From Thuidium tamariscinum (Eukaryota; Streptophyta; Bryopsida; Hypnales; Thuidiaceae), in NCBI GenBank assembly GCA_947034885.2, contig OX344752.2, positions 23,149,386 to 23,213,385 on the forward strand: a stretch of 64,000 bases of DNA, read 5' to 3'. A program made the translations under genes and the position numbers. This document shows positions 7,005 to 26,950 of this stretch, piece by piece. Under the pieces are notes generated by a model, which saw only the letters and a program-made list of their open reading frames with translations, was not told where the DNA came from and did not search any database. The number at the start of each line of letters is the position of its first letter. Within the stretch, counting starts at the first letter, position 1.

Positions 7005-8177
7005 GTTGGAAAAGGTCTAACGAAGGTAGTTTTGTCATTACGGCATTTAGTGTGGAATTGAAATTTTTTCTTACCCCCCTGTGAGGATAGAGAGGAGGCC
7101 CCTAAATTATGTGGATTATTTGTCCCATTTTCTGCCTTTTTTGCACTCACTTCTTTTTTGTTGTGTTATTAAGTTTTTTCTTCCTTGTTAGTTCGAAAGG
7201 TCCTATGAAGGTAGTTTTATCGTAACGGCATCTAGTGTAGACTAGAAGGGAGCGTGTTGCAATACAACAACGCCAAAGAGGTTTTACCAAGTTGCAAGGT
7301 TCATTGAGAAGATGTTTGGATGTTCTTAGGGTTTAGGGTTTAGCAAGAAGGAAAAAACGAAACACTGTGCACATGAAAACGTGAGACATTGCGCATTTAA
7401 TATAAGTGATATAAGAGCCTATGCTTTTGATAGGGAACGGTGGGGATGTATAAGCTGAAATTCAGAGCATTGGAATACACTCGATAGTGTACCATTTTTT
7501 TGACAAACAATCCCATATAAGATAAAAAAACAAATAAAATGTCTTCAGTTGAACTGAACTTAATGATGTTTATCAAGTTGCACACAAAAATTTGGATGAA
7601 GATGTCAATGTGCACAAAGCAGCTTGGTAGACCATCCAAAGGACAAAAAAGCTATTGAAATTCAAGAGCACAAGCTACTGATTCTTTTTCTCCATTCACC
7701 AGTGATTCATTCATTGACTACGACACCACTGATGATATCCAGCAACACAGCCTCTCGGCCCACAAAAAGTTCGTGTTGGCACACGAGCAATCCATGTCGG
7801 TATCACAGCAATGGAATAAGCAATGACCAGCTGAATAAATTACTGAGATTGATTTCTTGGGCGCCCTAACAGCAGTCCTAGGATTTGCCCAAGTTCTGTT
7901 TTGCTTTTTTGATAATTTCTACAATGCAATCTCTATCACTAAATTCTGTCCAGATTTCTAATTATTAAAGACGGACCTGGCAATCCGCAGCTGTTTCCAC
8001 GTAGAAACATTCTCACGAGTTAGAAAAAAGGTCCCTACGAAATTCATTAGAATCAATTTAGATCAACGATTTGTACGTCAGCCCATGCTAGTCCTCACAC
8101 ACTTACGACAGCAGGGAATCGAACATATCATGCACAAAGAGTTCAAATTTAAATGTACACTCACGTGTAAGAGGGTG
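7005..8177. other. NOL10 3' flank, no gene recognised
   Basis: The first few hundred bases hold the NOL10 3' untranslated region, with a short internal repeat (AAGGTAGTTTTGTCATTACGG near 7022, again near 7208). A stretch at 7785-7850 is about 80 percent identical to 9396-9455. Short open frames here show no known domain. Confidence 0.5.
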
Positions 8178-9301
8178 GTGGAAACATTGCTACCCCAAGG
8201 TAAGTTATTTCCAAGGGAGTGTTGCCAGAGGGCATTTCTCAGCATTTCTCAGATTCCTTGATTCCGGTTTTAGAGATACCTTGAGCTGAAGCGGCCATTG
8301 ATAACGATCTCCTGTCTCCAGAAAGCACAACATTTAACAAATGACTTTCGTTCTGATGAAGCTTGTACCTAATAAATCATAGCAATTCTAAAATAATTAC
8401 ACACTTAAACTTTATGAAAGAAATATTTAGCATCGACTACAAAAGGTCAACTTAGAATTCCTGTCCTGTGACTCGAAAATGTCAGATTCATTAGACTCGA
8501 GACATGGCGAAACTTTGGCATTACTCAGGCCGGGCGGCCTGAAAGGTCAATCTACACTTCTCAGAGTTTTGGAGCATAGTGTAAATAAATGTCACAATTT
8601 GTCACCCAAAATCGCACCAATTTTGCAAAATTGGCGATCTCGTGTCCATCGATCCTCCCATCAAGTGTTGATTTTTCACGAACCCCTCCTAGTAATTGTG
8701 TAGAAACTCAAAAATGTCATGTCGAAGGATGTTCAAAAATCTAACAAATCAGCGAATCACTAAGTTCATCGATTACTATCTCCACTTGGTATCGGTTACA
8801 CAATGAAATTTAAAATGAATTAGAAGTGTCCAGTGGTAATTCACACTGAGAATTGGTTCTAGGCTTTTCCTGCTCATCTTACAAATTCACCCTTACTCAC
8901 CAATTCGGAGACTCGATCGTTGCCTACACCGATCCGTTGATTCCTCTCAGTAGTATAACCCCTAGCACATCTCAGTAAATTGCAATGACACAAGCAGTCA
9001 AACCTTTCAGCAGGATCACGCTTGAAATTTTTTTCTGTTTTCTTTCCCTTATTTCCGCCCAACATGTATATTTCTCCATTTTGAGTTGTAATGTCGCTGA
9101 CAGTCACCTCTGTCGTGAAGGAAAGACTGCAAAGATATCGCATATGCAGTTCATATCTAATAACCAAAAAAAAGAACAACAGCAATTGCAAAACAAAAGT
9201 CGTAGAATTTGATGAGGCCACTAAATGCGCATGGCGTGAGGGAGATTAAAACGTCTACAGGAGTCTGCTATCTGTGCAGGGTCCGAAAAAACCAAGATCA
9301 A
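8178..9301 (-). pseudogene. Inverted, broken copy of the metallo-beta-lactamase gene (intron 1 + exon 2)
   Basis: Read on the minus strand this segment matches 43155-44262, where it forms the distal part of intron 1 plus exon 2 of the chloroplast metallo-beta-lactamase-fold gene. The copy of exon 2 (8190-8315) keeps a start-like ATGGCCGCTTCAGCTCAAGG. It has a premature stop because GAAATGCTGAGAAATGC replaces the parent TGC TTC GAA. No other exon of the parent lies nearby, so this is a fragment and not a second gene. Identity is roughly 80-90 percent by eye with small indels. Confidence 0.85.
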
Positions 9302-9395
9302 AATAACAGAGCAGCACTTAAGATTCTCCTTCAGATAATCAGATAAACTTCCTAGGGACCTCGCAGGTTATCTGAGGTGAAAAGATTTTAGATTT

Positions 9396-11289: not shown

Positions 11290-11620
11290 ACAAGTCTGGA
11301 ACATATCCTAGACACGGCACAAAATATGGGGCAGAAACCATTGCAGAGTTCCGAGCTACGTGATGAGCGTCATCGAGTCAAAGAGTGTATCTCAAAAAGT
11401 GGCATAGGCTTGAAGCTCTCTCACAGGCACCTTGAACGTGAAGGCCTCTCCCGCCGTCGGCCATAGCTTTTTGTTGTGCTGGAGGGTTGTTCTCATCGCG
11501 CAGTGCGGCCTTCCGTCTGAGTGACAAACCCCTTTTCTGGCCAACGTCGGTCGCTCAGTTGCAGGTCAGGTCCGCTCTCATCCATCACATAAGTTATTCG
11601 CACCCCGCAGACTCCAGTGA
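11290..11620. repeat. Diverged outer flank of the left inverted-repeat arm
   Basis: This stretch matches the inverse of 25699-25903 (for 11430-11620) and of about 26309-26480 (for 11290-11430). Visible substitutions and small indels put identity near 85-90 percent, unlike the core arms further in. On the right side about 400 bases (25904-26308) are present that have no counterpart here. Confidence 0.8.
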
Positions 11621-12331
11621 CAAACTAGCTGCAGAGTCCGTGAGCACTGAAGTTTTTCCCATCCACTCGATCCGTGTCAGCATGCGCAAGCAGTCTCTCC
11701 ACGACGAGGGATTTGCGTTGCACGTCATGCTTGAGAGTGCCGAATCTGTGAATCCGCTGCTGGGATTTATGGGCATGCATACGGTATCATTGCGGGGGCC
11801 CTTCTTTCAATTGGTTGTCATCCATATATCAGCAGGCATTACTTCTTGGCATGCCCATCGTGCAGCCAATCCACGGTGACACATTCCTAGCTTCAATTCC
11901 CCTGATCGAATGAATGTACGGTATGACCTTCTCTGAACTACAATTGTCGTTCTCGAATGTCTTGCCACACCTGCTGTATATGTATGTGCGTGGTGCCAGT
12001 CCCAAATGCCAGTAGAGCGCATGTCAAGGTAGAAGAGATCAGATTGCGGCATTCAGTGCGCTCCTTATATTTCTGGAGCTTATTGCTTCGAGGGACTCGA
12101 GTCAGTGAAGTGAAGTGAGATGTTTTTCCACGAAAGAAACAAGCATCGTTGCTTTCGACGCGGCCTGAAGCGGAGAGGAGCCGGGCCCGGGCAGAGGGCA
12201 GCTTCCCTGGAAAGCTGCCCCCCGTTCTGGTTTGGCCCGGCGGAAGCTGAGGACGGAGCCAATAACCCATAAGGTTAGTCGGGGGTCCCCGAAGTGTGCG
12301 CGTACATGAGCCCCAAGTCCGCCCGCTCTCC

Positions 12332-12492
12332 TCACTTACCTGGGCGGGGTCTATCCATGATCACCAAGGTGGATGGCCTAGGGCAACTGTCTCCATTGCA
12401 CTTCGGTCATGGGAGCTCTAGTATCTTCCTACATGGAGGCATACACGTCATAATTTGTGGCAGCGGGGGCTCGCGTACGCGCGGCCCTCACC
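12332..12492 (+). ncRNA. U1: U1 spliceosomal snRNA gene, left copy, ~161 nt
   Basis: All landmarks of U1 occur in order. The 5' splice-site pairing end (ACTTACCTG) is followed by stem-loop I with ATGATCACCAAGG (the U1-70K site; animals have GATCACGAAGG). The U1A loop ATTGCACTTCGG comes next, then the Sm site AATTTGTGG at 12452-12460, then the terminal hairpin GGGGGCTCGCG-TACG-CGCGGCCC. Length matches plant U1 (about 160 nt). The first two bases read TC where U1 usually has AT, outside the pairing core. I see no clear plant upstream element (RTCCCACATCG) and no TATA box at the usual spacing, so activity is uncertain. An exact inverted copy lies at 24827-24987. The 5' end is placed by alignment from memory to known U1 RNAs. 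Confidence 0.9.
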
Positions 12493-13157
12493 AATGCGAA
12501 ACCCTAAACTGGAGATAAGAAGACCTTTGCACCCTCTCAGGGACTCCAGAGCCCGACAGCCCTCTTGGAAACGCTCTCTTCGATGGAGCTTGAAGTTTCC
12601 GGTGTGCGTTGGCTCCTGCATCAGCAGCTTGTGATTGAAGCGTTAACCCCTGAGCTGAAACTAATAAAGCTTGCTGGAATTCCAACCTGTGAAGGTTTAG
12701 GGTTTGTCCCGACCCACTTCGCTCAGCCAACTCGAATTCAGGGACTCTAATAAATAATGCTGTTTGAGTCTGGGTGTGTATGGATCGGAGCATGTGTTTT
12801 GCCCTGAGATTTGTGGGAAAATAAATGGCCAGTTAATTTTGTAGTTGACCCACACTCGGGCTCCGGTCACGACAACGCCTTGGCGATGAACACTGTTGTT
12901 ACTCTTGTGATTCGGGTCAGACTCTTATGTTCTTGTCAGCCAAGCAAGGAGGATTCGAATGCTCCCAGTAATGAGTTATTTGGACGCTGCATGTCAAAAT
13001 TACAAGGACTCAAAGTACGCCAAAGATGGCCGAAGACCAACAAGAGTTCTTAACCCGTAATGACCCAAGCAACCTTTCTTTGGGTGCTCCCCTTTTTCAA
13101 GCTTCTTTTCAATTTTTGAGTGTTTTCTAAAAATAAAATTTACTCATAGAAACTAGA

Positions 13158-13275
13158 TTGCATTTTGAATCCAATGGGAGTAGTTTCATCAAATTTCAAG
13201 TTAAACTATGCCTTTTGAAGTGGAGTGGTGTAGTGCATGCATTATGAATCCAATGGGAGTAGTTTCATCAAATTC
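13158..13275. repeat. Direct repeat of ~30 bp inside the left arm
   Basis: The phrase GAATCCAATGGGAGTAGTTT plus CATCAAATT occurs near 13168 and again near 13247, separated by a GGAGTGGTGTAGT phrase that recurs near 14260. The same arrangement is present inverted in the right arm. No coding function is evident. Confidence 0.7.
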
Positions 13276-14958
13276 TTGAGTTAACCCCTAAACGACCAAA
13301 TTGCATTTTTTGGCAACATAGAAATTTTGGGTAGGTACTTGAGACCAGAGCTTTTACTATCTTCTTTTGAAATTTTGATACAACACTTTCTCAAGGAGTA
13401 GCTTTTAAGGCCCAACAATTTTCATAGCTTTTGGCTACATGGTTAAAAAGTTTTTGTATGATATGTAATTCTTAGTGATTGGCAGGTAGTCTAGGCAATC
13501 TAAAAAAACTCTAAAAATATACTTTTTTGAGAAATAAAAATTTGCAATTGGTTCTTTAGATTTATATATACATAGGAAGCTTTGCATCATTCCATTTTGA
13601 TTGATGAAACAAAAGCTATAAGGAGTTACAACTTGGGGGTAGTTATGGATTCACTATAGATTCTAAAAGAAACCTTAGAGTCATTTGTTCAACTCAATTT
13701 TTAATATTTTTGGAAAAAAATAAAAACATTGAGTGTAGATTGTTTATTACAACATTACAACCATTGGAATTGGAATTTTTCAATTCCATAAATAATTTAT
13801 TAACAATTTAGTATTTTGAATCATTCTTTACTTCTTTGTACTTCCTATTTTTTTCTATATGTTGCACTATTCTAAATGATCTACAATTTTTCAAGCATTT
13901 AGCCAACTTGCCTTGAAGAATGAATCCAAAGGGATACAACTATTTTGGACATTTTCTCATACAAACATGACCTTGTGAAGTGCAATTGCCCAATTTTTCA
14001 CGAGGCCAAAAAAAGAAATTTTGTCAATTCAAATGCTAATATCTTGCAATCTACAAGGTGGAAATTTCTGAAATTTTTTCCACACCTTCCTAAACTAGCT
14101 TACTACAAATACCTATAGTTACATGTGTCAAAAATGTTGTTTCTTCTTAAATTTTGTACTTATAATAAAAATGGCAGTTTTGGAGCGTTTTTGGTGAAAT
14201 CATAGTCAAAAAACTTTAGGTGTCAAACTATACCTTCTAGAATTTCTTAAGTGGAGTGGTGTAGTAGAATTCATGGGCTCAAAATGCAACTAACATATGT
14301 GATTGTTGCCCACCTCAAACTAGTCAAATCCACCTCAACAAAGGGCAAATCCTAGGAGCTCAACAAAAAGACAAGTATGCATTCTTGTTATTCTCCAAGC
14401 ACTACTCTCATTTCAATGGCCACCATGCATTGCAAGCTACACCATGAATTGGAAAAATGCTCAAAGTATTGTAGAATTTATACTCTTTTGAAGTACGTTT
14501 ATATATTATTCTATTGACCCAAATCAAAACTCAAACTTAATTTTCCATTGATCCAAATTAAACTTCAAATCTAATTCTTTTCAAACTTAATTTTCCTATT
14601 TGAGTTATTTGTAAAGTACTCTAACCGGGGTTTAAACCCGCGAGTTTTGTGGAAAAGCCGGTTGAGTTAAAAATGTCAAAATAAAAGTGGGTATGAAACT
14701 TATTTTTCCATCAAAATGGTGCCTAAAAAAGTTTGGTTCCCACTTTTGAAGTCATGTGACATAAGTATCTTGCAAAAAAGTTTGACGCTTCAACTGTAGT
14801 TGCCTTCTCCACTTCAAAAAAAGTGATGCCCAAAGGGGGGGGGGGACTTTACAAATAATTCAATTGACCCAAATTAAACTTCAAATTTCATTTTCTTCTA
14901 AACTGTGCAAGTGAATAATCTAGATTTTTTGAGAAGCTCACCCTCAATGTAAACTTTA

Positions 14959-17175
14959 GGATCCTATGGTTACATTCTATCCATTCCCAAAGAAAATGAG
15001 TAGACAAAGTAAGCAAGTTTTGAGTTTTTATAGTGAATTTTTAATTTCTAGATTTTGGAGTTCGTTAGGATATAAGTTGGTTTGTATCATGATCCTCAAT
15101 CTATTGTTGAAAAGTTTTAGGAATTGTGTTATGCGCTTATGCCGGTAGAATGTCCTTTTGACTATGAAGGTTTTTAATTAATTTTTCTATTTTTCCATTT
15201 TTTTGCATATAGATGTGATTGGAATTATTAATATGATCTATACATAAGTAAAGCTTACTTTTTCTAGAATACTTGGGATAAAGTGTGAAAAATTTTGACT
15301 GTTTGATTTTTAAATTATAACAATCATAGATGATAAACTTAATAGATAAAATTTATAGATTTAGGAGAAGAAAAATTATAAATGATAAAATATTCTTTTT
15401 TTATCTCCCCTCCAAAAAATAAATTGTCTTTGAATCTATAGAAAATTAAGTTTTGCTTTTATTTAAGAATTTGAAATATAGAAAATTATTTTAAACTCCT
15501 ACACATTTTTAATGAAAAAGAGTAGAAAGTCAAATTCAAAATTGAATGATATATATCCTACAAAATTTTAAAATATTTAGATAGGTGTTAATTTTTTTAA
15601 TCTAACAATTGATATATTATCATATTGTTTAGAATATCTTAAAGATTTGAAATCATTCTAAATTTTTTGTATTATTAATCATAAAAGTTTCAACTTTTTT
15701 CTTTTTTAGAATTCTAAAAATAAAATAAAAATTTAAAAATTCTCCAAATCTTCTTTATTTGTGTAGATTAAAGAATAGAAGTGTCAAAAATAATGTTTTT
15801 TTTTCATCTCCACTATTCCATTCAGTGGATAAACATTATATTTTCTCCCTTTTTCTAATTAAACTGCACTTCCTATATGAATTTTTAAATACTCCTCGCA
15901 TTAAAAATTTTAAAATAAAAAAATCCGGATCTTATATAAATTTGTTACTCTACAAGATTTTAGTTTACAAAATCTGAGATTTATTTCACCCTACGAAAAA
16001 TTTGTCATTGAGTACACACAATACACTATGTCCCTTTGATCCTTGAAGGGTAAAGATACATCACTTAGGAAGTTCTTTGTCTTCCTTGGTTTTAAAGATT
16101 TATTGCACTTTCTATGCATAGATTGGAAAAGAGGGGCTAGGAATTGAAAAGTTTTGGACTAATTAAATACACATCTACAACAAATTCAATCAAGAATTGG
16201 ATATATAGATTTTCTAAGGCTACTAAATTATATAAGTTCATGAAGTTCATTATATAAAAGACACTTGGTTAAATTGCAAGTAAAATTTTCAACCCTACTT
16301 TCTCTACCTTCTACTTTAGCCCCTCTTTTAATGAACTTTTGCTATTCCTCAAATCCTACAACAACATTCCTTAGTCTTATTCTAACTCAATGGCCTCTTT
16401 TTTCTTCAAATCCTCTAAATGATAATTTTTACTTTTTGGTTTCATTTTACGTGTTTTTTTTTATTCAAGTTTAAAAGAAATTAAAAAAGAACAAGGAAAA
16501 TTTTGAATTGGTAGCTAAAAACTTTTAAGGATGGAAAGAAAGAATGATGAAGGAATTTGAAGAGGCAATTTGATTTTGGATAAGTAAAATCTATCAACTA
16601 AAAGAATACTTGATGAAGTTGATTTTTAGTTTAATATTTTTTTCTTAACAAACAAGGATTGAAAGGAAATGGGTTTGAGAGATGGCTATAAACCATGCTA
16701 GGTCAAATCTTCATTGTGATTCTTGTATAGAAGATTAAATACAAAATATTTGAATATAGACTTACTAGATAAGAATTTTTTTTTTAACATGCATGCAACA
16801 AAATGAACAGGAGAAAGTGATAAAAAGTGTATGGTCATCCAATCAAAAGTGCACCAGTGGAAGAAAGAATTGTAAACTGGAGGGCCTGTTGACTGAAGGT
16901 CTTCAAACTAATGGACAGAAGGTAAGCTTCTAGGTCACAACTATGCTTTCAGGAGAATACCGAAAGTCCGGAAATAAACAGAGGTTAAACTACATACAAA
17001 CACCAACTTTCGAGACATTTTGTCAAAATTCAGGATCAAAGTAGCACGGCATTCAAAACTCATACTTAGGATCGTACCTCATCTAGGGGAGTGCCAAAAG
17101 TTTTGTTAGGAATACAGTGTTCTACACCAAATGCATCCTCGTAAAAAAAAGAAACCATCAAGTTCGTCAAGGGAC
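14959..17175. other. AT-rich centre of the large element, left part
   Basis: Low-complexity AT-rich DNA with frequent poly-A and poly-T runs. Open frames are short, Lys/Asn/Ile/Phe-rich and chance-like. I see no gene, RNA or clear repeat here. Confidence 0.6.
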
Positions 17176-17371
17176 CACTATAAGAAACTCCTGTTTTAGG
17201 TGACAAATTTTAGGTGACATCCAATGTAGCAAGTCATGTTTTTATGTCAACAATTATGTCCGCCATAACATCTTGATGTTATGGCGGACATAATTGTTGA
17301 CATAAAAACATGACTTGCTACATTGGATGTCACCTAAAATTTGTCACCTAAAACAGGAGTTTCTTATAGTA
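17176..17371. mobile_element. CACTA-like hairpin element, 196 bp, GAC target duplication
   Basis: The segment begins CACTATAAGAAACTCCTG and is a near-perfect palindrome folding around CATAACATCTTGATGTTATG, ending CAGGAGTTTCTTATAGTA. The direct flanks are GAC at 17173-17175 and 17372-17374. CACTA (En/Spm) elements begin CACTACAAGAAA and duplicate three bases, so both end and target match. A 27-base piece of its right half recurs at 18985-19011. Confidence 0.8.
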
Positions 17372-17684
17372 GACTCAATGTCCAAAAGCAAAATTTTAGC
17401 ATGTTGTAGCAATAACTCTCTAAAGATCCACTCTAATATTATAGTAATTCAAACAACTGCCCATGGTAAAGCCTGCTCAAATTACAATCGTAGATGCCCT
17501 GCCAAGACCATAAACTACAGTAAGACAACTACAGTAAGGAAATTAACAGACATTACAAACTGAAAAAGCAAATCATTCAAATAGGATAACTTTTATACAA
17601 GTAAAAAACAATTCAATGTATTGATCAAAGAAAAAAATTGAATATAAATGAACAACCAAAAAACATGGATAACTTACATGAATA

Positions 17685-17984
17685 TTAGACTTTCAACTTG
17701 CCAAACTTCATCAAATCTTTCCCAATCAATTGGACCAACTCTGGAATGCCCTCCAACTCCAAAAACTTGGAAACTAAAGCTTTGGTCCAATCGGTGTGGA
17801 ATGTTTTGTGCATAGAGTAGTATTCTTCAAAGAGGCACATCATCAAACTGCCTTCAATCTTCTTCGCACCCTGTTGTGTTTCCTGGCCAGGAAATACAAA
17901 CCTAGAGAAGGCCTCCTCCACAACCTTGAGCCGTGTTCGAGCGTTGCCAATGTTCACATCCTCCTGCAAATCTTTTCGTGCCAT
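17685..17984 (-). pseudogene. Gene-like fragment, 99-aa open frame, not recognised
   Basis: This is the best open frame of a higher-GC island (17690-18660) within otherwise very AT-rich DNA. It begins MARKDLQEDVNIGNARTRLK and ends at LMKFGKLKV. Codon use and amino acid mix look protein-like, with amphipathic helices (VVEEAFSRFVF, TKALVSKFLELEGIPELVQL). Frames upstream on the same strand (LFADWMQLKHVRTFLKKV..., 18140-18020) are protein-like too but cut by stops, so I read the island as a degraded gene captured by a mobile element. No homology is recognised. Confidence 0.45.
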
Positions 17985-18257
17985 AGAAATCTCCCGTAAA
18001 AGGGAGGCGTTCTAGCACTGATGCTTGATGCTCTTGGTCTTGAAGATCACGTTTGTCTCATTTCCTACCTTCTTTAAAAACGTTCTCACATGCTTCAGTT
18101 GCATCCAGTCTGCAAACAATTGCCGCATCTAGACGGTGTACTTGATGTTGTCCCGATACGCTTGCAGCTTCTCTATCTGTTCTCCCTGCTCTCTATCTGC
18201 TCTCTCTTCAACTTGTCCCGCACAATTAAATTACGTATCTGTTCTTCTATATATAGT

Positions 18258-18566
18258 CTATATTTGCTCTTTCAAGCCCTTGGCTTCAATTGCACGATCA
18301 ACAGTAGCTTGGAGACTCCGCTTCACACCCAAACCGCGAGTCAAAACCGTTGCAATAGGTCCAGGGGTTGGGGATACGTAAAAACAGTAGCCCTCCGGTG
18401 CCAAGAGAGTCGTAGAAGACATCACCGTGTTGGAAAAGACAAGGGCCTTGAACGGGCAGCCATCCTCTCCGTCACCACCAACCAAGCACTCCATTATGAA
18501 TCCTCCAAAAACGGGATTAGCGCGTCTCCCCTGTCCGCGAACACGATTCCAATGGCTATACTCCAA
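18258..18566 (-). pseudogene. Second protein-like frame of the captured island, not recognised
   Basis: The 102-residue frame contains LLAPEGYCFYVSPTPGPIAT and ends VDRAIEAKGLKEQI, with a normal amino acid mix. It lies upstream on the same strand as the 17685-17984 frame. The intervening 270 bases read protein-like in shifting frames (REQGEQIEKLQAYRDNIKYTV, then a stop). A broken multi-exon gene is plausible. I do not recognise the family. Confidence 0.4.
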
Positions 18567-18984
18567 ATCGGGATACTATGCAATTGCGGAATAAGTGATA
18601 TTAACCGACCACAAGTGCGCAAAAATTATGCACTGACGTGTCAGAAAACAAAAGTAGAAAGAAAACCTTGAGATGCGAGCACAAAATCCTAGCACCACTC
18701 CGCTAGTAATCGGACCGTAAGGTAGAAGGTCCTATAATGGACCATCTAAGGGCTAAAATTGAATTTCAAGGAGGTAAAACTTCTAGAAATGTTTTTCAGC
18801 AAATTTTCCTTCAAAGACAAGTAGAATTGGCATCTAATCCAATTTGTTTTGTATTTTAGGGAGCTTTACGGAATTAGTTATCAAATTTTGAAGTTGAAGT
18901 GCTATAGCTCTAAAATGGAGCATTGCCTAAAATGTACACAATTTTTACACCATTGAAAGCTATGAAAAAGAAACATGTACAAAC

Positions 18985-19118
18985 CTTGATGTTATGGCGG
19001 ACATAATTGTTATATTACAAAGCTATTTTTTAGGAGTTTGAAATATATCCAGGCTTATTAATTTTCCGTGACCTGCTGTTGTAGGATTTCCTTCTCATAA
19101 CTAGAATTTATTATAGTA
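18985..19118. mobile_element. Diverged CACTA-like right end
   Basis: The first 27 bases (CTTGATGTTATGGCGGACAT...) are identical to the right half of the hairpin at 17272-17298. The segment then decays and ends GAATTTATTATAGTA, resembling the hairpin end GAGTTTCTTATAGTA. With the hairpin at 17176 it brackets the gene-like island, so 17176-19118 may be one Pack-CACTA-style element. No matching target duplication is seen at this end. Confidence 0.45.
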
Positions 19119-20917
19119 GTATTGCACGTTGTTTAATTTTTAACAAATCAATTTCTTGCAAATATTATAAGAGCCCCTATGTACAAAGATAATATGTTAT
19201 TTTGCAAAATAACAATTACTAATTAATTACATGTCCTTAAATAATTTATATATCAATTGATATCAAAGAAAAAATATAAATATTTGAATACTATATAACA
19301 ATCTTCATAAAAATATAGAAATATGAAGAAAAAAGGAAAATATATAAATTCATGTACCTTTTATAGTAGCTTGTCACACAAAGGAAAAATTAAAGAAGTC
19401 TTACAAAATCAAAAAAGATTCAAATAGAAGAAAAATAATAAGAATCAATCAAAATAAAATATTATAAAAATAAATATGTAGTAGTTCATTTTGAAAACTT
19501 CTTGGTTTTAGTTTACTTTTATTTTAATTTTTGGAAAGAAATTAAGTAAAGTAAAATTAAATGAATTACTTTAAGCTAAGTTCTTTCACTTTAAAATACC
19601 TAAGTTAGCTTCATATAAATTTGGTACATAGTAATATATTTTTTATTCATTACCAATTCCTAAAACATAGCTTTGTAATTCTTAATATATTAACTTAATT
19701 AACTAAAATCTTGCAATGTAATTTCATTCAATTTATTGAATCTTTAAAAAATTCACAAATATCATCAATAAAATTTCTTCCATTCAACATATTGGCCTCC
19801 CTTGTCATAAAAGCTTTAATTCTAAAGAACAATGGAAAGCTTATAAGGGGGAAAGAAAATACAAATATATTTTTGAAAGAATCAATGAAAAATAAGATAT
19901 CACTTTCAATAATAGCAATAGCATTGATAATGACATACAAAAGTTAAGTGTACAAGGAATATTAGTTCTTAGAACTGTAATCAAAGTCATTCACTATCAA
20001 AAACTAAAAAATCAAGGTAATAGCATTGATATATCTAAAAGGACTGAAATATTCAAGCTGTAGATGTTGATAAAAGGACAAAAAATATTAGTAATATATG
20101 TTGATAATTTTTTCACAAAACAAAAGTGTCAAGAATGATATAATCTCTTAAATTTATCATATGAGTTGTCAAACAAGAAAAAGAAAAGGCCGGAGGAGAG
20201 ATGGGCATAATTGATTGGAAACATGACAAATTCATTCACAAACCAACAATGTAAATACATTCTACCTAATTATATTCTATTTTGTATATTGTAGAAAAAA
20301 ATTTGTTGAATAAGATATATACAATTACATTATTCATCTGAAGTTTGATTAAATAATTATAATTGTAATGTTATGTGAATAGTATTATAATGACAATCAT
20401 ATAATATAATTAATTATTTAAAACCAACGTTTGTAGATATTGTCAATTAAATAGAAAAAATCACAATGCTAAAGCATCAACAAAAGTAATTTACAATCTT
20501 GGAGAATTGTTCACAACAAAGGTCCATAAGGTCTTATAATGTGCATTCAAATCTTGGTTATAATTGTTAGAAAATCTATATCCTCCAACGATTCCAAAAA
20601 ATTATGGCCAAATTGGAGGTACTTCATTTTCAAATATAGATATCTCCAAAAACTGTTAGATATCACTTCATCAAGATTTTGGCAATACTAAATGGAGTTG
20701 AATTTTGTTATGTGATTTATCAAAGGCAATTTTCCAAGTTTTATAAAATTTAGTTTTTTTTATAATTTCAAAGTTGAACGTTGATATTTAGAGTTTATTT
20801 TTTATATTTCTAATGATACATAACTACAACATTTGTATACATTTATCTAAATTTCTCAATTTTTCAAAGTAGAATTTTAACTAGATATATTTATTTCCAT
20901 TAACCCTTTAAAGAGCA
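19119..20917. other. AT-rich centre of the large element, middle part
   Basis: Very AT-rich sequence with no convincing gene. The longest frame (19711-19947) is low complexity and has an equally long antisense frame, which argues against coding. Confidence 0.6.
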
Positions 20918-21248
20918 CATTAGATGAAATTTAAGGGCAAGAAGAGATTGTTTCAAGGTTGTTCCCCTTGCACTTTCCTATGTTGTCCAACAAGTGCAAA
21001 CCAATCCTAATATCCCGATTTTCTAAATTTTTGAAAAAAAATTTCAAAAATTCAAGAGTATTATGAAATTGAAAACTGGATTTAAAAAATAAATATTTCA
21101 AAAAATATATTTGAAAATTAATTAATTAAAGTAATATCTGACATAATATAGTGTAAAGTAACGTCAAATTGTTGATGTAGTACGGTTCCTAAAGTTCCTA
21201 TAGTCTAGGAACTTATAGTCTTTCTTTGCCCTTAACTTTCATTTAATG
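20918..21248. mobile_element. CATTAGA-family inverted-repeat element, copy A, 331 bp
   Basis: Ends are CATTAGATGAAATTTAAGGG and, inverted, CCCTTAACTTTCATTTAATG. Internal phrase GTTCCTA..GTCTAGGAACTTATAGTC resembles GTATAGGAACTCATAATC inside copy C. Related copies lie at 38499-38766 and 60487-61100. It is nested within the centre of the large element. Confidence 0.65.
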
Positions 21249-22353
21249 AATAACCCACTTTTAGGTTTTTTGAGAATTTAGACATGCCTTACTAACTTCA
21301 TGATTTGGAATTTTCGCATGAATGTTGTAAGATGGATGCTATTCATTATAATCTACATGTAAAGCTTTGTTTCACATCACTCTAACAAATATTGCAAAAA
21401 TTAGAATGTTTAAAAAAATTTTTATGTGAAATTAGGCACCAAAAATAATTTTGAAAATTTTAAAAATTATTTCTTAAAATTACAATTGTAAAAATTGATA
21501 CCTACTACCAAAAATTGAACCATTCAATTCCAAATAATTAAATAAAAGTCATGAAGAGATTTAATTTGCAAACAATGAAGGTAGAAAAAAAAAAAAAAAA
21601 TCACCTTTCACTCTCAAATTTGAAAATTTTCAAAAAGAACATTAAGAATTCTAGTTGTTTAGTAAGATATTCTCACCATTGACTGTAATCAATAGTTTTC
21701 AAATTTTACCAAAATCTATTAACATATTGTTTTTATCATTTATTCAATAACACCTTTCATTATACACCTTTTCTCAAAATTAATTGAATAAAAAATTCTT
21801 TTTGGTTAAAATTTTTTTCATATTTTTTCAACTCATTTTCCAAGATATTGACTTAAAAATACAAGTTGTAGGACCTACATGTTTTTCTTTAAAAATGTTG
21901 AAAGAAAAAACTTCACCTTTTGGAAGGATTAAGAAGGCCTATGATTTTGAAGTTCAAGCACATTGATCTTGCAATTGGTGAAGATATTCATTCTAAAATT
22001 TTGGGACAAAGTACTTGGGCAAGTTAAACAAAGTACACTACAATTAGAATTTGTCAAAAAATAAATACTAACAAAGATTTTGCCCTCGCTTTGAGGTGAG
22101 TAGTTTGAAGAAGTTTTGGGTTAACACCTTGGTCTTTTAGGAATTAACCCCAACATGCTAGAAGCAACGAATTGTTAGTTGCATGAATTTGAAGCTAACT
22201 TAAATTTGACCAAGTCATTATTTTTGGTGGTTTATATTTTTGAAAAATTCTAATTGAAAATGAATAATTATGAATTTTTTTCCCAAGCTTTTGTTCAAAG
22301 GAGTCCATTGCAAATCTTGATTTTTGAATGTGATTCATTGTTTTCAAGAAGCA
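21249..22353. other. AT-rich centre of the large element, right part
   Basis: AT-rich DNA, including a 16-base poly-A run near 21585. No gene is seen. Phrases GGGTTAACACC and GAATTAACCCC near 22120-22145 resemble the TTAACCC end motif but no element could be delimited. Confidence 0.55.
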
Positions 22354-25300
22354 TAAAGTTTACATTGAGGGTGAGCTTCTCAAAAAATCTAGATTATTCA
22401 CTTGCACAGTTTAGAAGAAAATGAAATTTGAAGTTTAATTTGGGTCAATTGAATTATTTGTAAAGTCCCCCCCCCCCCCCCCCTTTTGGGCATCACTTTT
22501 TTTGAAGTGGAGAAGGCAACTACAGTTGAAGCGTCAAACTTTTTTGCAAGATACTTATGTCACATGACTTCAAAAGTGGGAACCAAACTTTTTTAGGCAC
22601 CATTTTGATGGAAAAATAAGTTTCATACCCACTTTTATTTTGACATTTTTAACTCAACCGGCTTTTCCACAAAACTCGCGGGTTTAAACCCCGGTTAGAG
22701 TACTTTACAAATAACTCAAATAGGAAAATTAAGTTTGAAAAGAATTAGATTTGAAGTTTAATTTGGATCAATGGAAAATTAAGTTTGAGTTTTGATTTGG
22801 GTCAATAGAATAATATATAAACGTACTTCAAAAGAGTATAAATTCTACAATACTTTGAGCATTTTTCCAATTCATGGTGTAGCTTGCAATGCATGGTGGC
22901 CATTGAAATGAGAGTAGTGCTTGGAGAATAACAAGAATGCATACTTGTCTTTTTGTTGAGCTCCTAGGATTTGCCCTTTGTTGAGGTGGATTTGACTAGT
23001 TTGAGGTGGGCAACAATCACATATGTTAGTTGCATTTTGAGCCCATGAATTCTACTACACCACTCCACTTAAGAAATTCTAGAAGGTATAGTTTGACACC
23101 TAAAGTTTTTTGACTATGATTTCACCAAAAACGCTCCAAAACTGCCATTTTTATTATAAGTACAAAATTTAAGAAGAAACAACATTTTTGACACATGTAA
23201 CTATAGGTATTTGTAGTAAGCTAGTTTAGGAAGGTGTGGAAAAAATTTCAGAAATTTCCACCTTGTAGATTGCAAGATATTAGCATTTGAATTGACAAAA
23301 TTTCTTTTTTTGGCCTCGTGAAAAATTGGGCAATTGCACTTCACAAGGTCATGTTTGTATGAGAAAATGTCCAAAATAGTTGTATCCCTTTGGATTCATT
23401 CTTCAAGGCAAGTTGGCTAAATGCTTGAAAAATTGTAGATCATTTAGAATAGTGCAACATATAGAAAAAAATAGGAAGTACAAAGAAGTAAAGAATGATT
23501 CAAAATACTAAATTGTTAATAAATTATTTATGGAATTGAAAAATTCCAATTCCAATGGTTGTAATGTTGTAATAAACAATCTACACTCAATGTTTTTATT
23601 TTTTTCCAAAAATATTAAAAATTGAGTTGAACAAATGACTCTAAGGTTTCTTTTAGAATCTATAGTGAATCCATAACTACCCCCAAGTTGTAACTCCTTA
23701 TAGCTTTTGTTTCATCAATCAAAATGGAATGATGCAAAGCTTCCTATGTATATATAAATCTAAAGAACCAATTGCAAATTTTTATTTCTCAAAAAAGTAT
23801 ATTTTTAGAGTTTTTTTAGATTGCCTAGACTACCTGCCAATCACTAAGAATTACATATCATACAAAAACTTTTTAACCATGTAGCCAAAAGCTATGAAAA
23901 TTGTTGGGCCTTAAAAGCTACTCCTTGAGAAAGTGTTGTATCAAAATTTCAAAAGAAGATAGTAAAAGCTCTGGTCTCAAGTACCTACCCAAAATTTCTA
24001 TGTTGCCAAAAAATGCAATTTGGTCGTTTAGGGGTTAACTCAAGAATTTGATGAAACTACTCCCATTGGATTCATAATGCATGCACTACACCACTCCACT
24101 TCAAAAGGCATAGTTTAACTTGAAATTTGATGAAACTACTCCCATTGGATTCAAAATGCAATCTAGTTTCTATGAGTAAATTTTATTTTTAGAAAACACT
24201 CAAAAATTGAAAAGAAGCTTGAAAAAGGGGAGCACCCAAAGAAAGGTTGCTTGGGTCATTACGGGTTAAGAACTCTTGTTGGTCTTCGGCCATCTTTGGC
24301 GTACTTTGAGTCCTTGTAATTTTGACATGCAGCGTCCAAATAACTCATTACTGGGAGCATTCGAATCCTCCTTGCTTGGCTGACAAGAACATAAGAGTCT
24401 GACCCGAATCACAAGAGTAACAACAGTGTTCATCGCCAAGGCGTTGTCGTGACCGGAGCCCGAGTGTGGGTCAACTACAAAATTAACTGGCCATTTATTT
24501 TCCCACAAATCTCAGGGCAAAACACATGCTCCGATCCATACACACCCAGACTCAAACAGCATTATTTATTAGAGTCCCTGAATTCGAGTTGGCTGAGCGA
24601 AGTGGGTCGGGACAAACCCTAAACCTTCACAGGTTGGAATTCCAGCAAGCTTTATTAGTTTCAGCTCAGGGGTTAACGCTTCAATCACAAGCTGCTGATG
24701 CAGGAGCCAACGCACACCGGAAACTTCAAGCTCCATCGAAGAGAGCGTTTCCAAGAGGGCTGTCGGGCTCTGGAGTCCCTGAGAGGGTGCAAAGGTCTTC
24801 TTATCTCCAGTTTAGGGTTTCGCATTGGTGAGGGCCGCGCGTACGCGAGCCCCCGCTGCCACAAATTATGACGTGTATGCCTCCATGTAGGAAGATACTA
24901 GAGCTCCCATGACCGAAGTGCAATGGAGACAGTTGCCCTAGGCCATCCACCTTGGTGATCATGGATAGACCCCGCCCAGGTAAGTGAGGAGAGCGGGCGG
25001 ACTTGGGGCTCATGTACGCGCACACTTCGGGGACCCCCGACTAACCTTATGGGTTATTGGCTCCGTCCTCAGCTTCCGCCGGGCCAAACCAGAACGGGGG
25101 GCAGCTTTCCAGGGAAGCTGCCCTCTGCCCGGGCCCGGCTCCTCTCCGCTTCAGGCCGCGTCGAAAGCAACGATGCTTGTTTCTTTCGTGGAAAAACATC
25201 TCACTTCACTTCACTGACTCGAGTCCCTCGAAGCAATAAGCTCCAGAAATATAAGGAGCGCACTGAATGCCGCAATCTGATCTCTTCTACCTTGACATGC

Positions 25301-25698
25301 GCTCTACTGGCATTTGGGACTGGCACCACGCACATACATATACAGCAGGTGTGGCAAGACATTCGAGAACGACAATTGTAGTTCAGAGAAGGTCATACCG
25401 TACATTCATTCGATCAGGGGAATTGAAGCTAGGAATGTGTCACCGTGGATTGGCTGCACGATGGGCATGCCAAGAAGTAATGCCTGCTGATATATGGATG
25501 ACAACCAATTGAAAGAAGGGCCCCCGCAATGATACCGTATGCATGCCCATAAATCCCAGCAGCGGATTCACAGATTCGGCACTCTCAAGCATGACGTGCA
25601 ACGCAAATCCCTCGTCGTGGAGAGACTGCTTGCGCATGCTGACACGGATCGAGTGGATGGGAAAAACTTCAGTGCTCACGGACTCTGCAGCTAGTTTG
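22354..25698 (-). repeat. Right arm of the 3.3-kb identical inverted repeat
   Basis: Reverse complement of 11621-14958, with only homopolymer-length differences found (17 C from 22467 onward, then 4 T). At the outer boundary the arms part abruptly. The right side has about 22 bases (around 25699-25720, TTTGGTTCAAATTGCCACC) where the left has AGTGAC. Homology then continues at lower identity. Confidence 0.95.
24827..24987 (-). ncRNA. U1: U1 spliceosomal snRNA gene, right copy, ~161 nt
   Basis: Exact reverse complement of the U1 gene at 12332-12492, with the same ACTTACCTG 5' end, ATTGCACT loop, AATTTGTGG Sm site and terminal hairpin. The two U1 genes point toward each other across about 12.3 kb. 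About 700 bases of upstream DNA are identical as well, so both share whatever promoter exists. The downstream flank begins GAAACCCTAAAC in both. I find no standard plant snRNA upstream element. Confidence 0.9.
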
Positions 25699-26308
25699 CG
25701 TTTGGTTCAAATTGCCACCGGAGTCTGCGGGGTGCCAATAACTTACGTGATTGATGAGAGAGCTGGCCTGCAACTGATCGACCGACGTTGGCCAAAAAGG
25801 GTTTGTCACTCAGACGGAAGGCCGCACTGCGCGATCAGGCAACCCTCCAGCACAACAAAAAGGTGTGGCCGACGGCGGGAGAGGCCTTCACGTTCAAGGT
25901 GCTCTAATGCATTAAAGGGTGGTCGTGCAAGAGGCATGAACGCAGCCGAGCAAATTCACGCGGAGAATTCGCTCGCTATTTGCTCGTAAGCAGGAGCTGA
26001 ATTGAAGGAAGCCGCGGAGGAAGAGGAGCTTCAGGCGGACGTCACCATTTCCTCAGAGTTGAATCCTTCTTTTCCACCCGATTCCCAACACGCGCGATTT
26101 GGCAATAGATGAAGCTTCCTTCTGAAATGCCCAGGAGTTGTCCTTCCCGTTTGCGCGGATGAACTCCATCACTCACACGCTGTGGTGTGTAACTACGCCA
26201 ACGCCATCTCACAGCCCCTTGATGAATCGCCCTGCAAGGAAATTATCATTGATTGGATCGATTAGTTCCAAAAGGTGCGAGTCCATGAAGAGGCATATGT
26301 GAAGATCA
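25699..26308. repeat. Diverged outer flank of the right arm plus a right-only segment
   Basis: 25699-25903 matches the inverse of 11430-11620 with scattered substitutions. 25904-26308 has no counterpart on the left and looks like an insertion on this side (or a loss on the left). Homology with the left flank resumes at about 26309. No gene is recognised. Confidence 0.7.
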
Positions 26309-26950
26309 CTTCCAAGGTGCCAATGAGGGAACTTCAAGCCTGTGTCACCATTTGATACACAATCTTTGACTCGATGACGATCATCACGTAGCTTGAGATT
26401 TTGCAATGATTTCTGCAAGGAGTAATTCACAACACAGTTTGAGTGGAAAGGGAAACATCGAGTATGGAAAGTTAACTGCGGCACAACAAAATGGAGCTCA
26501 ATCATATCTTGATGATGAACGTGGATGCCTGCGTGCGACGATCATTACCACAGGAGGACCATCAGCACCATGTCACCACTTGTTTCACAACCTTCCACTC
26601 GACGGCGACCATCTCGAAGTTTGGATTTCTGCGATGAATCCTGAAAGGAGATGTGTGGGAAGTGAAGCATTGGGTGTGAGTATGAACTTGAAAGCAGAGC
26701 TCAATCATGCCGTGAAAACGAAAGGTGGATGCCCAAATGGAAAGGCATGTGTGATGATCGCTCTCAAGATGTGCCAAGGAGGGAGCTTCAAGACCTTGTC
26801 ACCAATTGGTTCACAATCACTCCGTCGATAAAGTTCACTGCGTAATTTGGATTTCTGCAATGAATTCTGCAAGATGTTTTTCTGGAAGAAGGGATTCTGC
26901 AAGACGTAATTCTGCAAGGAGTTATGCGGAAAGTGAAGCATCAGGAGTGA
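26270..26950 (+). repeat. Three ~227-bp tandem repeats at the 5' end of the SET gene
   Basis: Anchors TGTCACCA..TG.TTCACAA recur at 26343, 26571 and 26797 (spacings 228 and 226). Each is followed by TGGATTTCTGCAATGAAT-type and GCAAGGAG-type phrases and by (G)AGCTCAATCATGCCGTGAAAAC. The last unit runs directly into the SET-gene coding frame. The first unit is also homologous, inverted, to 11290-11430. Confidence 0.8.

Follow-up and report, generated by a model that had tools for sequence, protein, structure and literature searches.

The moss Thuidium tamariscinum carries two identical U1 small nuclear RNA (snRNA) genes placed face to face in the arms of a palindrome on contig C4. We analysed the 64,000-nucleotide stretch that holds it (C4:23149386-23213385, hereafter the window) and compared it with the 363-Mb genome, assembled in 19 contigs. 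On the sequence evidence, a recent homogenisation of the arms overlies an older inverted homology, and snRNA palindromes of this kind were probably homogenised by arm-to-arm gene conversion, here of an older U1 pair. Established are the identity of the arms, the old homology outside them, the recurrence of the same anatomy at two further loci and a patchwork of identical tracts at a fourth.

Self-BLAST of the window aligned 11427-14958 with 25902-22354 in inverted orientation. Exact extension delimited a left arm (11621..14958, + strand; 3,338 bases) and a right arm (22354..25698, - strand), separated by a spacer (14959..22353) at both ends of which the arm homology stops abruptly. Positions 11621-14834 are the reverse complement of 25698-22485 (3,214 bases) and positions 14835-14958 that of 22477-22354 (124 bases), without a single substitution in the 3,338 aligned bases; the sole difference between the arms is an A/G run, AAA followed by 11 G on the left and AAAA followed by 17 G on the right. 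An initial annotation, made from the letters of the window, had described 3.3-kb arms identical save for homopolymer length and a full U1 gene in each, and both descriptions hold. The window contains, in other words, inverted arms of at least 99% identity around a spacer, as expected of a palindrome under arm-to-arm gene conversion. The 95% upper bound on arm divergence, given 0/3,338, is 0.09%, and were the arms as diverged as the adjoining flank (13/190 in that computation), 3,338 bases would be free of differences with a probability of about 10^-103. The identity in the window consists of one tract only, with a single abrupt switch and no gradient.

Both U1 genes, at 12332..12491 (+ strand) and 24828..24987 (- strand), scored 112.4 bits over positions 1-166 of the Rfam RF00003 profile (gathering score 69.5), and they are convergent, the transcription of each being directed at the other. 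They retain the full-length U1 fold and the Sm site AATTTGTGG. By eye, the left gene is preceded at 12264..12271 (+ strand) by AACCCATA, which resembles an upstream sequence element (USE), and an identical copy precedes the right gene (25048-25055, - strand); at about -70, 13 of the 18 other U1 loci have RTCCCATA where the window genes have AACCCATA, again by eye. A possible TATA-like element, TACATGA (12303..12309, + strand), lies some 25-30 bases upstream of the left gene, a weak resemblance noted by eye. That the fold is complete and that an upstream element sits at its usual place argues against pseudogenes, which we regard as unlikely, and both copies are presumably expressed. Across loci, the U1 5' end reads NCACTTACC in 14 of the 20 loci compared and ATACTTACC in just two of the 20; loop I is variable too, with GATCACCAAG in the window copies.

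Outside the arms, the mirror symmetry continues in a diverged form, in what we call outer lips. The left lip (11331..11616) and its partner on the right (25719..26416) differ at 13/188 positions next to the arms (11427-11616 versus 25902-25719) and at 20/111 positions farther out (11331-11441 versus 26416-26306), and about 400 bases of the right lip (25903-26305) are absent from the left. Diverged lips next to identical arms show that the inverted homology is older than whatever event rendered the arms identical. Inspection of the outer ends of the arms revealed no target-site duplication or direct repeat, this diverged mirror homology being found there instead. A genome search with 25700-26900, in which common words were skipped, recovered only the query itself and the two lip pieces. 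This outward continuation had escaped the initial annotation.

The genome search for U1 yielded 23 matches and that for U2 45 matches, one of them under the cut-off (best 46 of 22,475 candidates scored). A second U1 palindrome was found on C10, where 7796491-7798762 is the reverse complement of 7820389-7818118 (2,272 identical bases). Its U1 genes are 20 kb apart and divergent in orientation; its outer lip, beyond the identical tract, shows 16/359 mismatches, and its inner end is sharp. The arms (7796129-7798762) also contain a ribosomal L31e gene; the lip holds its first exon and the identical tract the exon after it, with Pfam scores of 24.4 bits (just below the cut-off of 25) and 109.3 bits, respectively. 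In the first 28 codons the L31e copies show two differences, both synonymous, and a third difference falls just past codon 28, in the presumed intron. Because the codon differences are all synonymous, these copies look maintained and older than the identical tract, and this protein gene appears to have been homogenised along with U1. At this locus, what looked like an exon truncated by the right inner end seemed to offer a direction of copying, but this reading was set aside, as the frame matches nothing in Pfam and is perhaps not a gene. The repeats examined across the inner junctions in the window were likewise not decisive as to direction.

A third palindrome, on C3, carries U2 genes (12683871-12685973 versus 12693492-12691391), with 2.1-kb arms and a 5.4-kb spacer. 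Compared over all but one short stretch, its arms contain no mismatch and one 1-base gap. The C10 palindrome shares with the window the U1 gene and short dispersed pieces only, and the C3 palindrome short dispersed pieces only. On C3 we also noticed an 88-base direct repeat (95%), with one copy outside the left arm (12683664-12683751) and the other at the outer end of the right arm (12693491-12693578), which may be relevant to the formation of the arms.

We compared flanks for six of the eight inverted pairs of snRNA neighbours, counted as neighbours within 30 kb of each other, and three of the six had mismatch-free arms of at least 2 kb (C3 being counted across its uncompared stretch). The U1 pair on C1 (107/1158 mismatches; 84.7% by BLAST with gaps) and the U2 pair on C10 (43/1616) are diverged, and the U2 pair at C3:12.50 retains short homology only. 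A non-adjacent inverted U2 pair on C1 shows 95/2161 mismatches in a patchwork with identical tracts of 399 and 235 bases, neither of which is a single open frame, and its U2 genes themselves differ at 12 sites. Diverged inverted snRNA pairs thus span 2.7-9.2% (n=3: U1 C1, U2 C10 and U2 C1). In a permutation test, which presumes even constraint along the arms, none of 5,000 permutations reached the longest identical run of the C1 U2 pair, whether the U2 gene was included or excluded; the same test applied to the top three runs gave p values of 0.009 for the U2 pair on C10 and 0.003 for the U1 pair on C1. The same-strand comparison covered U1 loci alone, inside 1.5-kb flanks, and its best non-overlapping pair, 60 kb apart, showed 89.5% identity over 1,324 bases. 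For the U1 copies on C5 and C7, no second copy occurred within the 10 kb taken around each.

These results are consistent with a process in three steps. A U1-bearing segment and its neighbouring DNA would first have been duplicated locally in inverted orientation; the outer edges would then have drifted apart by 7-18%; and one arm would recently have overwritten the inner 3.3 kb of the other by intrachromosomal gene conversion, leaving both U1 genes and their promoters identical again. We infer that U1 was already included in the old duplication and that conversion, and not one fresh duplication, erased the differences between the arms. The patchwork of the C1 U2 pair would represent partial tracts, and the palindromes in the window, on C10 and on C3 the near-complete case. 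A one-ended invasion at the old lip, followed by inward copying and end joining, would account for the sharp inner ends and would homogenise and lengthen the arms together. Another U1 locus and a U2 locus, on other contigs, appear to have gone the same way, which suggests that inverted pairing plus conversion is a concerted-evolution system for some snRNA genes. More tentatively, many spliceosomal snRNA genes could persist in inverted pairs that differ in age, with arm-to-arm conversion resetting the two members again and again, so that palindromes would take the place of tandem arrays in their concerted evolution; we consider this broader proposal possible, with the odds somewhat against it.

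Several observations weigh against homogenisation by conversion. In all three palindromes the identity breaks off on its inner side from one base to the next, and steady conversion would be expected to leave some diverged margin on that side as well; this is the chief observation that classical conversion fails to predict. Around the C3 palindrome, some 400 bases beyond either arm contain no diverged lip. A clear patchwork occurs in one pair only, U2 on C1, the longest run being not unusual in the U2 pair on C10 (permutation p = 0.11) or the U1 pair on C1 (p = 0.09). Inverted orientation is not in excess, accounting for eight of 17 snRNA neighbours (3/8 U1 pairs and 5/9 U2 pairs). A 60-kb background sample of C3 contained no inverted pair of at least 99% identity, the best reaching 96.9% over 1.4 kb; one such sample is too small, and snRNA genes therefore cannot be called special for palindromes. 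Finally, all comparisons were made within one genome, so that the palindrome is only presumed to be older than its identity.

The three steps compete with one recent event of one-ended copying, by break-induced replication or by synthesis-dependent repair closed by end joining. A break in the old left lip would have left an end that invaded the right lip and copied 3.3 kb inward through U1 until AT-rich DNA was reached, where it would have been end-joined to unrelated sequence (or the mirror case); the second U1 would then be new. Such an event accounts for inner ends that are sharp and non-homologous at three of three palindromes, for a diverged lip solely on the outer side at two of the three, and for one abrupt switch in the window instead of a gradient. 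However, the internal patchwork of the C1 U2 pair fits repeated conversion, and the synonymous-only differences between the starts of the two C10 L31e genes suggest that more than the lip was duplicated earlier; we therefore consider a single event rather unlikely, if worth keeping in view. The fold-back copying invoked in the initial annotation survives in this form, although its seed would be the old homology and not the end of an element. Its proposed mechanism for snRNA gene amplification fared similarly, in that inverted duplication appears to be one route of multiplication here, whereas an element-driven origin finds no support.

Perfect identity over 3.3 kb, observed in the assembly sequence, could also arise if one arm were a false copy produced through a mis-joined repeat. 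We hold such an assembly artefact to be improbable, because each arm continues into its own diverged lip and distinct flanking DNA and because the same anatomy recurs at C10, and partly at C3, in a 19-contig assembly; the arms also differ in the A/G run.

The initial annotation had further placed a single 11-kb AT-rich element between the U1 genes and derived the palindrome from its aberrant transposition. Its judgement that simple insertion cannot produce the inverted U1 duplication was right. However, AT-rich DNA is not confined to that interval: in 1-kb steps, G+C content is 22-43% at 13-24 kb, 28-33% at 32-39 kb and 22-33% at 49-57 kb. Part of the AT-rich half of the left arm is a dispersed repeat some 945 bases long (13281..14227), also present in the right arm (about 23092-24038), with at least 39 near-full-length genomic matches at 76-81% identity, plus shorter ones; arm pieces 14600-14863 and 14700-14865 match C3 at 88% and one C1 site at 91%, respectively. 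Three spacer open reading frames (ORFs) gave no Pfam match, and a non-autonomous element would lack a transposase anyway. As to further copies, the 18 U1 loci besides the window pair were examined with 1.5 kb of flank on each side; between them and the window pair, no alignment scoring above 180 bits exceeds 198 bases. Nor was a U1-bearing copy of the arm found at those loci or among the best 40 of 12,348 first-look candidates scored with the whole arm as query; arm copies without U1 could escape this scoring, and the scored matches, which omit the other U1 loci, do not allow the uniqueness of the remaining arm to be deduced. An 11-kb element was thus rejected, being without ends, target-site duplication, further copies or recognised coding content as far as these searches reach. 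It is therefore very improbable that an AT-rich element, through aberrant transposition or by folding back, captured and mirrored the adjoining U1 gene: this would explain the AT-rich DNA on the inner side of the arms, but not the lack of a target-site duplication, of a Pfam match in the three ORFs and of U1-bearing arm copies in the searches above, the comparably AT-rich DNA elsewhere in the window, the unlike arms and spacers of the C10 and C3 palindromes, or the old homology beyond the arms. Dada-U1 transposons, which insert at a fixed site inside the U1 gene according to the portion of the account consulted (PMC3706591), were rejected because neither U1 gene is interrupted anywhere in its alignment to model positions 1-166.

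What keeps dispersed snRNA genes alike where no tandem array exists is still an open question. The tandem U2 snRNA arrays of primates show concerted evolution; snRNA copies are homogenised there as here, in direct tandem arrays in that case and in inverted pairs in ours. Inverted pairs of U1 and U2 genes that range from 9% divergence to perfect identity, with conversion-like tracts at one pair, would form a series from which one could measure, in a plant, how often ectopic conversion occurs and how long its tracts are. Mosses are reputed for high homologous recombination and, if the arrangement were true of mosses generally, this reputation would be tied to genome structure. Among the open-access titles and abstract openings that our literature search covered, none reported snRNA palindromes; subscription literature lay outside its scope.

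Palindromes with arm-to-arm gene conversion are described on sex chromosomes, in the sections consulted on the human Y (PMC3723533) and on the W of a plant, willow (PMC7023750). As presented there, they resemble ours in their inverted gene-bearing arms, their spacer and a near-perfect identity over part or the whole of the arm; unlike them, ours have arms of 2-3 kb, lie on three contigs (C4, C10 and C3) and so are not restricted to a single sex chromosome, and carry spliceosomal snRNA genes. In Caenorhabditis, long inverted repeats of paralogous gene pairs are thought to be actively maintained, and conversion has been proposed, as far as the excerpted account goes (PMC1803023). Convergent or divergent pairs, near-identical arms and identity limited to part of an older duplication are common to both systems, although the excerpt concerns protein genes, such as HSP16, whereas our pairs are of snRNA genes in one genome only. 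Tandemly arrayed genes of Physcomitrella are highly similar, a similarity that has been explained by gene conversion (Lang et al. 2008, via the part of PMC3045890 consulted); there too neighbouring plant gene copies stay alike and conversion is proposed, but that part of the account includes neither snRNA genes nor palindromes.

By content, the genes of the window include DUF7733, NOL10 and ribosomal L11, a set indicative of a land plant; the size and composition of the genome would suit a moss. The palindrome is enclosed by an 85% inverted repeat of 1.15 kb (8157-9308 versus 44282-43154), accompanied by a 176-base piece, which may be part of a larger old inverted duplication or a dispersed repeat. 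Within the spacer, 17177-17370 forms a near-perfect inverted repeat of 194 bases, with CACTATAAGAAA at its left end, a near mirror of it at its right end and a possible 3-base GAC duplication; we presume from these features a resemblance to a CACTA-type miniature element. A piece of this repeat was seen by eye again near 18990.

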